From positions 1 through 36,754 of the forward strand of contig CAJOJB010000022.1 of NCBI GenBank assembly GCA_905234635.1: 36,754 nt of DNA, in the 5' to 3' direction. The stretch comes from an uncultured Eggerthellaceae bacterium (lineage in GTDB: Bacteria; Actinomycetota; Coriobacteriia; Coriobacteriales; Eggerthellaceae). The notes beneath the pieces are model-generated. The model was given only the letters and a program-made list of their open reading frames with translations. It was not told the origin of the DNA and made no database searches. The translations under genes and the position numbers were made by a program. Position 1 is the stretch's first letter. Every line of letters starts with the position of its first letter. Shown one piece after another: positions 11,198-15,748 of the stretch.

Positions 11198-11867
11198 TTA
11201 GAGGCCCCGCAAGAAGCGTTCCCACCAGTCACGCGAACCCATGCCCGTTGACGCAAGCATATCGAGCATGCTGTTCTGGGCGTCGGGTGGCAGGCTTGAG
11301 TTGCTGCTGGAATCGTTCTGGATGCGCCTGCAAATCCGCCATGGCCTGCTGCATCTCGGCGATAAGGGACGCGTCGGGCCCACCTTCAGGTGCCCCCGCA
11401 AAAAAGGCACTCATGTCGGGAAGGCCTGGTATCCCTGGCAAGGCCGTTTGCGCGGTTATCCCCGGTGCATCGTCGGCACCAGGACGCGGTAAGTCAAGTT
11501 GGTAAAGCTCTTCCAGCAGGGCATCGAAGCCTTCGGGGACATTGCTCCCCCCTGCACATTCCTGGGTGTACACGCCTTCCTGAAAGACAATCTTAAGGCG
11601 CCACTGCTTGCTTCCTGGGGCCACATCGTCGGCATAGGTTTCGTCCCAGCCGAACACGCCCAATTCTGCAAGCGCATCGCGCAGGGTTTCCGCCGTCTTG
11701 CGGGGCACGGTACGCGTGAAGTCGGTCGTGAGCTGTGTGGTGGGCCCTTTTTCAACATGCAGTTCATAGACGTCGTCGTCTTGCTGTTCCATGCGGAAGA
11801 GCACGCGTCCATTCACGCGATCGGTCAAGCTAAATATCAGTTTCTGGAAAGGGGCTTTTTCACTCAT
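11198..11867 (-). CDS. Conserved hypothetical protein, probably frameshifted near its C-terminus (annotated ORF 11229..11867)
   Basis: MSEKAPFQKLIFSLTDRVNGRVLF... The in-frame tail KPATRRPEQHARYACVNGHGFA looks unnatural, while the +1 frame gives SLPPDAQNSMLDMLASTGMGSRDWWERFLRGL* ending at 11198. Confidence 0.6.
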
Positions 11868-11873
11868 AACTAC

Positions 11874-13472
11874 CTACTCGTCAGAATTGTTTGCGTAGTC
11901 CTTACCTATGACCACTAAGAAGTCTTCTGACATGATGTATTCCAAGTCGTTCTTTTCTACGTGGCCTTCGCCAAGCACGGCCACGATATCTGCCGCTTCT
12001 TCGGCGCGGTCGGGATCTTCGTACACCACCACCGTTTGGTTGTAGTTAAACGAATCTGCGTCGCCAATGTCGGACACCGTATAACCTTGGGCCTCCAGAC
12101 GTTTTTGCACCGTGGCGGCCAGGCCGTCGACGCCCGAACCGTTGCGCACGGCAATGGTTCCTGTCTTAGCCGCAAGGTCCTCACCCGACTGCCCCGACTT
12201 CCCTGCACTACCAGCATTGGCAAGTACCGTGCCTGTCAAAAAATCAATTGAACTGTCTTCCGTTGGCGGCAGACCAGAATCGACGCGTTGCATCATCTGG
12301 CTCCAATCGGGTTCGATGATACGTTCAAACCACAGTTCGTCTTCAAAGAACGATTCGGTGGGCATACTGCCTGTCCAGATATTGTTTTCGGTGTCCATAC
12401 CCTGGAAGGCCTGGGCAAGACCAACGATGTCGTTTACCTGAAGGTCGGTCTGCACCGCACCCGAAAGTGCTCCAACAGTATTGGCAATAGTGCCCACGTC
12501 AGAAGCAAGGAGCTTGTTGGCAATGGCCTGAATAACCAGGCGCTGGTTGGCTGCACGATACACGTCGCCATTGCCGTAGTCAGAATAGGCATTACGGGCA
12601 CGACACAGGATAAGAGCTTCCCAGCCACCCAGGGTCTGTACGCCCGCAGGCAGATAACCGCCCGCATCGTCATCCCAAATTTCCATGGGTACATTAACTT
12701 CGATACCGCCCAAGGCATCCACGACGTCCTGGAGACCATTCATGTCGATGAGTACAAAGTGCGAAATGCCCACACCCGCAAGCTCGCTCACGGTTGAAAT
12801 GGCCAGTTCAGGCCCACCAAAAGTGTAGGCGGCATTGAGTTTTTGCTTTCCATAACCAGGCAAGTCGACCTGAGTGTCGCGCTGCATGGAAACGAGCGTG
12901 ACCTGTTTTTCAATGGGGTCGATGCGCGCCAAGATAATAGTGTCGGTACGGTAGATGCCGTCAGTCGACATGTTTTCATTGCGGTCGATAGATTCGTCGG
13001 TGCCCAAAAGCAACATATAGAAGGGCTCCTGCGTGAGATTCGTTTCAACCAATACATCATTGACCGAAGAATCAACGCCTTCGGTAAGACGACTATTAAT
13101 CCATTGAGCGTAGCCGAAGGCTCCAATGCCAGCTAAGGCAGCCACAATAAGAAGACCAGCAAGCACCTTGGTAAACATGCCCGAACGCCTGCGTTCCTTT
13201 TGCTTGGAATTAACGTAGCGATTAGCCGCAGCATTACGAGAATAGCGATTGTCGATTTCGTTTTTCGCCAAGGTTTCGTCAGAATCTTCATGCTGCGCAT
13301 TCCGTGCCGTTTCATTCGCACGAGCGGCTAGGGCAGCTTGTGCAGCCCCCAAAGGTTCTGCCTGATCGAGCATGTCAATATAGGTGGGTTCTTCGGCATG
13401 ACGTGCTGCCTGTTCAGCTTGCGCAGCAAGGCGCGCAGGCGATGTAGTAGTGCGTTGAGGTTTCTTTGCCAT
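11874..13472 (-). CDS. LytR-CpsA-Psr (LCP) family protein with LytR_C domain
   Basis: FYMLLLGTDESIDRNENMSTDGIYRTDTIILARIDPIEKQVTLVSMQRDTQVDLPGYGKQKLNAAYTFGG is an LCP core; C-terminal TIAVRNGSGVDGLAATVQKRLEAQGYTV is LytR_C-like. Confidence 0.92.
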   Translation of the reverse strand: MAKKPQRTTTSPARLAAQAEQAARHAEEPTYIDMLDQAEPLGAAQAALAARANETARNAQHEDSDETLAKNEIDNRYSRNAAANRYVNSKQKERRRSGMFTKVLAGLLIVAALAGIGAFGYAQWINSRLTEGVDSSVNDVLVETNLTQEPFYMLLLGTDESIDRNENMSTDGIYRTDTIILARIDPIEKQVTLVSMQRDTQVDLPGYGKQKLNAAYTFGGPELAISTVSELAGVGISHFVLIDMNGLQDVVDALGGIEVNVPMEIWDDDAGGYLPAGVQTLGGWEALILCRARNAYSDYGNGDVYRAANQRLVIQAIANKLLASDVGTIANTVGALSGAVQTDLQVNDIVGLAQAFQGMDTENNIWTGSMPTESFFEDELWFERIIEPDWSQMMQRVDSGLPPTEDSSIDFLTGTVLANAGSAGKSGQSGEDLAAKTGTIAVRNGSGVDGLAATVQKRLEAQGYTVSDIGDADSFNYNQTVVVYEDPDRAEEAADIVAVLGEGHVEKNDLEYIMSEDFLVVIGKDYANNSDE

Positions 13473-13478
13473 ACGCCA

Positions 13479-13484
13479 ATTATA
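13479..13484 (-). promoter_or_regulatory. -10 box placing the transcription start at or near the LCP start codon
   Basis: Minus-strand TATAAT-TGGCGT-ATG; no SD sequence upstream of the ATG. Confidence 0.5.
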
Positions 13485-13576
13485 CCGTAGCTGCTCTTCA
13501 CGCAAGATTCTTGTGACCAAACATCACATGCTGTTTTACGGTCACACGTTTACGCCACAAGGGCAATCGTAACGAA

Positions 13577-15748
13577 TTAAAGCTTCAGGCGTTCTGCCAT
13601 ATAGTCACTCGCCGCTATGTCAATGGCGTCGTCGAGGGCGACCAAATTCGCTGGCAAACCTTTGCGCTCCAAGGCACGAGCCAAAATCCAATCGGCAAGT
13701 TCAGGGCTTTTTGCTAACACGGGCCCATGGACATAGGTGCCAACTACGTTCTTATACAGAATACCTTCGGTCGCATCGCCTTCATTGTTACCGATGCCTT
13801 TCAGCACGGTGCCAAATGGCTTAAGCCCATCTTCCAGAACGGTTACCCCCGCGTGGTTTTCAAAACCAATAACGGGACGTGCGGCCAATTCGGTCTGCAC
13901 CGCAATGTTACCGACGATCCTTTCATGTTTGCCGTCGGCACGACCGCTCGTCATACCTATGACACCCAAACCTTCAAGTTCGTTTTCATCGATATGCCAG
14001 GTAGTGCCCAGAATTTGCAGACCCCCATCAATGGCAAGCACCACGCCATTGTCTTCTACATACTGCGCAAAGCTTTCCCTATAGGGAAGCAATTCTTCAT
14101 ACGCAAGACGTTGCTGGCGATCGAAGCCGTCTCCCAATACAACGATATCGACCTCTGAAAAATCGGGCGCTTCCCCACTTACGACAGTTTGTACATGCAC
14201 GGGAATGCCACGCCATTCACAGCGCTTGGCCAGCACGGAAACATTTCCTGCGTCCCCACCCTGGTCGAGCAGGTCGGGGAACAGGTGCATAATGCGGACG
14301 GGATTGCCTTCGACCATGTGGCCTGCAGGGGGAACGGAAGCCTCAATTGGTTCTTCGAGGGGCTTGGATGCTTCAATGGCCTGAGGCGCAACAGACACTT
14401 CAGCCATTTTTACGCATTCTGCACGCACGACAGGCAAGCTCGTATAGTTTGCGATAACAAAGACTTTGTAATCGCTCGGCAAAGCCGCAACATAACGCAT
14501 GAGTTCCGTAGCGTCTTCAACAATATGCGCCGCGACGCCCGCATACTTCAAGCGAACCTGCAGGTCGTTTGCGCGCATACCGCCCACAAAGACCTTGGTA
14601 TTGGCTCGGCCGGCCAGCGCTTCAAAGTCCACGTCCCATATCCAACTTACGTCGTGGCCATCGCCTTCCATGTCGTTCACAAAAAAGCTTGCAACGACTG
14701 GTTCGGTTTCCTGAAGGACGAGTCCTAAGTTTTGATTAAAACCCGTAGGGTTCTTCGCCAGGTTCAACAGCACACTGCGCCCATGAACATCCATGTGCTC
14801 AAGACGGCCGTTATGCTGGTCGAAAGACTTCATCGTCATCTGAATAACATTGTTTGAAAGTCCAATGGAATGGCCTACGGTGTAAACCGCAAGCAAGTTG
14901 TACACCATATAGGCACCTGAATAGGGTGCCTCAATAGTGGCTATAGCGCCGCCTGCCACTGCCCGTTCATCGGACGCAGCAACCACGTCGAATTTCAAGC
15001 CACCAAGTCCAACCTCACAATTTCTCGCCATGAAACGCAGATGGGCGCGCTTGAAGTCGCATTTTGGACACGAAAAAGCTCCGAGCTGACTATAGGTACG
15101 ATACTCATATTCGAGCATGCTATCGCACTGTTGACACATTTGTGCATCAACTGCGGAACCATATAAAGAATCGAGCCCTTCGCTCACACCAAATGGAATA
15201 GAGGCATGAGGGAGTTCTCGGGCAATCTTTTCACAATGCGGATCGTCAGCATTATAAACAAGTATGGTCTGAGGTGATTGTTGTAGGGCTTCAATAATGC
15301 TTTCCTGGATACGGTCGATTTCACCAATACGATCGAGCTGGTCGGGGAACAAGTTAAGCAAAACCACGTAGCGAGACTGCAGGTGGGGCAAGATTTTTGC
15401 AAGCCACAATTCATCGCATTCAAACACGCCCCAGTCTGAGTCATGGGCAGCAAGTAAGCTGGTAGCAACACCTGAATCGAGGTTAGCGCCAGTACGATTG
15501 CAAACAACGCGTTGACCTGCGGCAACCAGGCAATCCGCGAGCATATTTGTGACGGTAGTTTTACCGTTGGTACCCACTACGCAAATACTGCCACGTTGCA
15601 GTTTGCTGGCCATGTCGGCAATGATAGAGGGCTCGATATACAGGGCCAGCTTTCCTGGAAAGTTCCCCGCGGGCCTATGAAAAACATGGCGCAAGGTGGC
15701 GCTTGACATACTGCTTGCTGCTTCAGCAACTGATTTTCGGATACCCAT
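13577..15748 (-). CDS. MurT-GatD fusion: Mur ligase (DUF1727) plus class I amidotransferase-like domain (lipid II isoglutaminyl synthase-like)
   Basis: VVGTNGKTTVTNML P-loop, CQQC...CPKC zinc ribbon and LAKNPTGFNQNL (MurT), then a continuous ORF into IMHLFPDLLDQGGDAGNVSVLAKRCEWRG...GTYVHGPVLAKSPELADWIL (GatD). Start MGIRKSV; the upstream extension to 16138 is antisense to the SPOR gene. Confidence 0.88.
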   Translation of the reverse strand: MGIRKSVAEAASSMSSATLRHVFHRPAGNFPGKLALYIEPSIIADMASKLQRGSICVVGTNGKTTVTNMLADCLVAAGQRVVCNRTGANLDSGVATSLLAAHDSDWGVFECDELWLAKILPHLQSRYVVLLNLFPDQLDRIGEIDRIQESIIEALQQSPQTILVYNADDPHCEKIARELPHASIPFGVSEGLDSLYGSAVDAQMCQQCDSMLEYEYRTYSQLGAFSCPKCDFKRAHLRFMARNCEVGLGGLKFDVVAASDERAVAGGAIATIEAPYSGAYMVYNLLAVYTVGHSIGLSNNVIQMTMKSFDQHNGRLEHMDVHGRSVLLNLAKNPTGFNQNLGLVLQETEPVVASFFVNDMEGDGHDVSWIWDVDFEALAGRANTKVFVGGMRANDLQVRLKYAGVAAHIVEDATELMRYVAALPSDYKVFVIANYTSLPVVRAECVKMAEVSVAPQAIEASKPLEEPIEASVPPAGHMVEGNPVRIMHLFPDLLDQGGDAGNVSVLAKRCEWRGIPVHVQTVVSGEAPDFSEVDIVVLGDGFDRQQRLAYEELLPYRESFAQYVEDNGVVLAIDGGLQILGTTWHIDENELEGLGVIGMTSGRADGKHERIVGNIAVQTELAARPVIGFENHAGVTVLEDGLKPFGTVLKGIGNNEGDATEGILYKNVVGTYVHGPVLAKSPELADWILARALERKGLPANLVALDDAIDIAASDYMAERLKL

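Follow-up and report, generated by a model that had tools for sequence, protein, structure and literature searches.

Background

For several Gram-positive pathogens, MurT/GatD is either essential or important, and it has been discussed as a drug target. It is known as the lipid II isoglutaminyl synthase of Staphylococcus aureus, Streptococcus pneumoniae, and Streptococcus pyogenes (PDB 6gs2, 6fqb, and 9sq9). In S. aureus, MurT alone is inactive with any donor, and the GatD substitution C94G abolishes glutamine-dependent amidation while leaving NH3-dependent amidation unaffected at pH 8.5; at pH 7.5, neither the wild-type enzyme nor C94G uses NH3 or NH4Cl (PMC3266927). The S. pneumoniae structure places Asn28-Thr29-Tyr30 so that they obstruct the passage from the GatD site to the MurT opening, with GatD Tyr30 occupying the place of the channel-plugging Tyr136 of IGP synthase and MurT Arg135 bordering a negative gate; the GatD substitution Y30A severely lowers activity in vitro (PMC6085368). 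Fused murT-gatD ORFs were described in 2012 as rare cases in Actinobacteria (PMC3267633). In human CPS1, Ser stands where the catalytic Cys would be, and the enzyme uses free ammonia (PMC4655335); by analogy, vertebrate CPS1 offers a clear precedent for a switch from glutamine to ammonia. Our literature search found no paper on a GatD that lacks its Cys.

A murT-gatD fusion with an intact MurT half

The window (the whole stretch of DNA that was analysed, 36,754 nucleotides, from an uncultured Eggerthellaceae bacterium) carries a murT-gatD fusion gene next to a cell-wall gene:

13577..15748, minus strand: murT-gatD fusion gene, 723 aa counted from the Met at 15748; stop codon 13577-13579
14414..15748, minus strand: MurT ligase half, residues 1-445 (PDB 6fqb/9sqj MurT chains, TMt 0.79-0.81)
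14300..14413, minus strand: linker joining the halves, residues 446-483 (segment 460-477 low-confidence in the AlphaFold model)
13580..14299, minus strand: GatD-like half, residues 484-723 (PDB 6gs2_A/5n9m, TMt 0.88-0.90, rmsd 2.1-2.2)
11874..13520, minus strand: LytR-CpsA-Psr cell-wall protein, downstream of the fusion

Pfam places Mur_ligase_M, MurT_C, and GATase_3 on the protein, each above its cut-off (for the GatD half, GATase_3 scores 92.1 bits against a cut-off of 27). An AlphaFold model built from 18 sequences (pLDDT 83.8, pTM 0.82) fits the solved MurT and GatD chains from S. aureus, S. pneumoniae, and S. pyogenes, and in this model the GatD fold is retained. The fusion stays below the NCBIfam equivalog cut-offs for MurT (NF045635, 205.6 versus 800) and GatD (NF045636, 149.6 versus 400). 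Both domains and their fold are like those of the known synthase, and so are the following residues, which are retained:

15557..15574, minus strand: P-loop GTNGKT, residues 59-64, intact (column comparison)
15059..15136, minus strand: four-Cys zinc-ribbon-like insertion, C205, C208, C227, and C230, intact
14633..14653, minus strand: DVSWIWD, residues 366-372, intact; equivalents of MurT Asp355, Trp360, and Asp361 facing the GatD site
14252..14254, minus strand: Asp499, equivalent of catalytic Asp32
13919..13921, minus strand: Arg610, equivalent of the glutamine-capturing Arg142 (HMMER alignment; invariant column; role from PMC6085368)
13727..13729, minus strand: His674, equivalent of catalytic His206 (HMMER alignment, column comparison)

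The MurT equivalents of the P-loop Lys, Asn85, Glu110, Asp112, Glu113, the hinge Arg304, and Lys321 are all present as well, as are the contact residues Trp371 and Gly501. A preliminary description of this DNA, made from the letters alone, had stated that the P-loop, the four Cys, and the His region of GatD are kept, and this is correct in each case. The intact MurT active site and Cys ribbon, together with the GatD His and Asp, are points of likeness to the MurT/GatD synthase, and lipid II amidation by the fusion is predicted from the retained MurT residues.

By fold, MurT residues, and gene neighbourhood, the window gene is a vertically inherited orthologue of the MurT-GatD lipid II amidase of Eggerthellaceae. 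Paralogue status for the window genus was ruled out on two grounds: the same LytR-CpsA-Psr neighbour adjoins canonical murT-gatD in other genera, and the clade nests beside the canonical loci L013 and L055 in a tree of the MurT half. A hypothetical protein without a match in Pfam (11229-11867, minus strand) lies downstream of the LytR-CpsA-Psr gene and has a counterpart in L053 (7827-8519). Most Eggerthellaceae loci collected have murT and gatD fused, which is the norm of the family.

Loss of the nucleophile and of neighbouring elements

Four sites in the fusion differ from the known synthase, in that Asp replaces the nucleophile Cys, the oxyanion loop is broken, and both the Tyr plug and the gate Arg are missing:

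14027..14029, minus strand: Asp574 (GAT) replacing the catalytic Cys (translation, HMMER alignment, column comparison)
14126..14134, minus strand: oxyanion-hole loop Gly-Asp-Gly (539-541), not Gly-Gly-Gly (Gly at 539 and 540 in 198/198 canonical loci)
14258..14266, minus strand: residues 495-497 Asp-Gln-Gly, not Asn-Leu-Tyr (S. pneumoniae equivalents Asn28-Thr29-Tyr30)
15344..15346, minus strand: residue 135, Pro for the MurT gate arginine (S. pneumoniae Arg135; Arg in 193/193 canonical loci with data)

Around the nucleophile site the translation reads ...NGVVLAIDGGLQILG..., and in an HMMER alignment to the solved GatDs Asp574 falls on Cys94 of S. aureus and Cys107 of S. pneumoniae. Asp does take the place of the catalytic Cys, as the preliminary description had proposed. 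The AlphaFold model has a strand at 569-573 and a helix at 575-580, so that residue 574 sits at the nucleophile elbow. The sole Cys of the GatD half, residue 510, lies on another helix, which rules out an alternative Cys nucleophile. Five congeneric orthologues were recovered, four with Asp and one with Gly, and the possibility that close relatives have Cys here is thereby removed. Sequencing or assembly error at residue 574 was ruled out, since Asp is common to three other congeneric assemblies (L007, L008, and L009, 66-81% identity), which encode it with GAC. The window codon, GAT, is two substitutions away from TGT, as first described, and the Gly codon of the sister species L010 (GGC) makes a stepwise TGC-GGC-GAC path plausible.

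The altered glycine loop had likewise been recognised from the start; it reads GDG at 539-541, the oxyanion-hole triplet Gly72-74. Two changes had been overlooked, the missing Tyr plug (residue 497) and the substitution at MurT Arg135. At the plug position, 196 of the 197 canonical loci with data have Tyr and one has Phe, and the equivalents of residues 495-497 read Asn-Gln-Gly in L008 and L009. The Arg135 position holds Pro or Tyr in the Asp clade (Tyr in L008 and L009) and His in two other Cys-less lineages. The 193-198 canonical loci with data for each site show no change at the Cys, the first two oxyanion glycines, or Arg135. Judged by its residues, the window protein lacks what defines a GatD that hydrolyses glutamine. 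The earlier proposal, in which an intact MurT is joined to a domain unable to use the normal route of glutamine hydrolysis, is thus well supported; the other residues that are missing and the independent losses in other lineages strengthen it. Annotating these proteins as glutamine-hydrolysing is probably wrong.

Repeated loss of the nucleophile in the family

Over all loci collected, the nucleophile Cys is present in 198 and absent in 17, both counts including duplicate records of the same genes. A tree of the MurT half only requires four separate losses, and a single Cys-less origin was ruled out, as forcing all Cys-less rows together gave p-AU 0.003. The family has therefore lost the nucleophile on four or more occasions. 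The first lineage is the window genus (Asp, with Gly in L010). The second is L019, which has a Gly nucleophile, His replaced by Gln, and a three-residue deletion that takes out the Tyr plug; it is the sole copy found in its genome, which is 93% complete. The third is a paralogous fusion in genus g3 (L038, L179, and L180) with an Asp nucleophile, the oxyanion loop GTG, and Gly34 replaced by Lys, and a canonical Cys copy stands beside it in 3/3 genomes. The fourth, L058/L149, has Asn, and its genome (77% complete) holds two further Cys copies.

The oxyanion pair is broken in all four lineages, and Arg135 is altered in three of them. The Tyr plug is altered in the three other lineages (in one merely to Phe) and in the window genus except L010. 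Since there are just four independent pairs, a sign test cannot reach significance, so the case for an association between these changes is made by comparing the counts with those in about 195 canonical loci. A natural glutaminase-dead series of this kind would reveal which parts of GatD are needed beyond glutamine hydrolysis and how the ammonia channel opens.

Ammonia-dependent amidation as the most likely mechanism

The most likely mechanism, at a probability of roughly 55%, is an amidase with a dead glutaminase, whose GatD persists to support a working MurT as its scaffold and ammonia inlet. The residues strongly suggest that the GatD half has lost glutamine hydrolysis, and those retained in MurT suggest that it would activate the D-Glu alpha-carboxyl in lipid II with ATP; the activated D-Glu would then be amidated with free cytoplasmic ammonia. 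The GatD half, with the Tyr plug between the sites and the gate arginine gone, may be the ammonia inlet, and these two losses would ease ammonia entry. More speculatively, Asp574, Asp540, and Asp499 together with MurT Asp366 and Asp372 could form an acidic pocket that draws in NH4+. The GatD half would be retained because MurT needs GatD physically, as demonstrated in S. aureus. Given the biochemistry of C94G and of MurT alone, a natural protein that combines Asp or Gly at this site with an intact MurT should amidate in an ammonia-dependent way and require GatD as an obligate scaffold.

By analogy, the C94G mutant or CPS1 is the most likely model for how the window clade works, and both comparisons have limits. 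The nucleophile is removed in C94G, and the natural L010 and L019 carry the very same residue, Gly. However, C94G is a laboratory single mutant that used NH3 at pH 8.5 only, whereas the natural proteins carry oxyanion-hole changes as well, and the majority are also altered in plug and gate. Similarly, vertebrate CPS1 has a class I glutaminase-like domain without the catalytic Cys within a free-ammonia enzyme, which is the use predicted for the window fusion, but it is another synthetase in another pathway, has Ser rather than Asp, and is activated by N-acetylglutamate.

The main objection to the ammonia proposal is that the S. aureus enzyme does not use ammonia at pH 7.5; ammonia use in vivo would thus need an improvement, which we infer here. 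Y30A is harmful in S. pneumoniae GatD in vitro, and by analogy this counts against the proposal. The retained glutamine-capturing Arg and the retained His and Asp of the site also speak against it, as a pure scaffold could dispense with them. The window's own genome has glutamine synthetase matches of GlnA length and of the longer GSIII length; glutamine auxotrophy as a driver was therefore ruled out for this genome, and the lack of a glutamine shortage that would force the switch is a further point against the proposal. The named congeneric records are MAGs, one of them from roe deer jejunum. An ammonia-rich gut would suit ammonia use, and is context rather than evidence.

An alternative with a smaller but real chance of being correct is relaxation, in which D-Glu amidation is unimportant in the genus, the glutaminase is decaying, and the fusion amidates barely or not at all, or else serves a different, structural purpose. 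Measured against MurT, the GatD half evolves faster in all Cys-less lineages than it does in canonical proteins (residual z 2.7-5.2; 2.7-3.4 in the window genus), and the replacement residue differs between lineages (Asp, Gly, Asn), both of which favour relaxation. Against it, every MurT catalytic residue tested is intact, and Asp is preserved in four species via both GAT and GAC codons. Additionally, pairwise dN/dS is about 0.05-0.2 in both halves between species whose proteins differ by about 19-34%, although dS approaches saturation in many of the comparisons; purifying selection acts on both halves. The low dN/dS together with the faster GatD half fits a domain that is minus one function yet still needed.

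Somewhat less probable than relaxation is a changed amine, whereby MurT would couple the D-Glu alpha-carboxyl not to ammonia but to some other amine or an amino acid, and a glutaminase would consequently be useless. The altered gate Arg135 and the missing Tyr plug are compatible with this, and a second family from the same order, GatD2/MurT2 (see below), has the Cys, the His, and the MurT gate acids altered together. However, the MurT active-site residues of the fusion match those of canonical MurT, and a direct amine ligase would not need the GatD half or the contact residues Trp371 and Gly501, all of which are retained.

Supply of ammonia in trans by another GATase is improbable. The window's own genome, in which no second GatD was found (besides the fusion, just CobB/CobQ-type and HisH matches), is only 81% complete, and congener G004 has a second, Cys-containing copy. 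Yet the GATase_3 matches in congener G002, which is 96% complete, comprise the fusion, a CobB/CobQ-type protein, and a HisH-type match only, with no second GatD. The G004 copy lies on a 3.1-kb contig of a MAG that is 70% complete and clusters with another genus in the tree; given this placement and the short contig, it may be contamination. The position of GatD is, moreover, already filled by the fused half. In congener G001, loss of the whole gene was not accepted, since its LytR-CpsA-Psr orthologue begins at a contig edge and the fusion gene may fall in the gap.

Hydrolysis of glutamine with Asp574 as an alternative nucleophile or general base is very unlikely, for despite the retained His674, Asp499, and Arg610, Asp540 also puts a negative charge in the oxyanion hole, the Gly of the sister species is unable to act in this way, and C94G ends glutamine use in S. 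aureus.

The preliminary description had listed free ammonia, a scaffold role, a partner glutaminase, and a different MurT substrate as possible meanings. The first two fit best and amount to one mechanism, the partner glutaminase is disfavoured by the absence of a second GatD from G002, and a different amine substrate of MurT has a small but real probability.

GatD2/MurT2 pairs in Coriobacteriales

A divergent family of GatD-like proteins, here named GatD2 and encoded beside or fused to a MurT-like gene, was found in 41/399 Coriobacteriales genomes, and in 9/397 genomes sampled phylum-wide, all nine in the same order. No literature on the GatD2/MurT2 pair was found. In all 30 GatD2 loci that were read, the nucleophile position is taken by Gly or His and the His position by a residue other than His, and NQ[AG]GD replaces the NLYGD of canonical GatDs; one further tandem copy has SQGGD. 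The loci of this family are labelled L042, L045, L250-L279, and L280-L285.

Like the window clade, GatD2/MurT2 combines a MurT-like protein with a GatD-like one that lacks the nucleophile Cys and has an unplugged motif. It differs in that it is about 28% identical to the window fusion, the catalytic His is also absent, and the MurT gate acids and KNP motif are altered. At so low an identity, the shared Gln and small residue at the plug look like convergence. The MurT2 of L042 and L045 has Lys, Tyr, and Gln for the gate residues Asp355, Trp360, and Asp361, and KGE for KNP; these residue changes hint at an altered donor or geometry.

A broader reading, which we advance tentatively and consider less probable than the mechanism for the window fusion itself, is that Coriobacteriales repeatedly turned a glutamine-fed MurT-GatD into an ammonia-fed one. 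The nucleophile and oxyanion hole would have been lost, in several lineages the channel would also have been unplugged or the gate changed, and the GatD half would have become an inlet for ammonia or ammonium; in GatD2/MurT2 this, or an altered amine, would be the rule, with the canonical pair largely replaced. Bacteria would then offer a concrete example, open to experimental test, in which the move from glutamine to ammonia evolved repeatedly, with vertebrate CPS1 as a parallel. Just 2 of the 41 GatD2 genomes (G213 and G347) also give a strong match to canonical GatD; the two types are largely mutually exclusive. G347 has two MurT2-GatD2 pairs close together, and G360 has two GatD2 genes.
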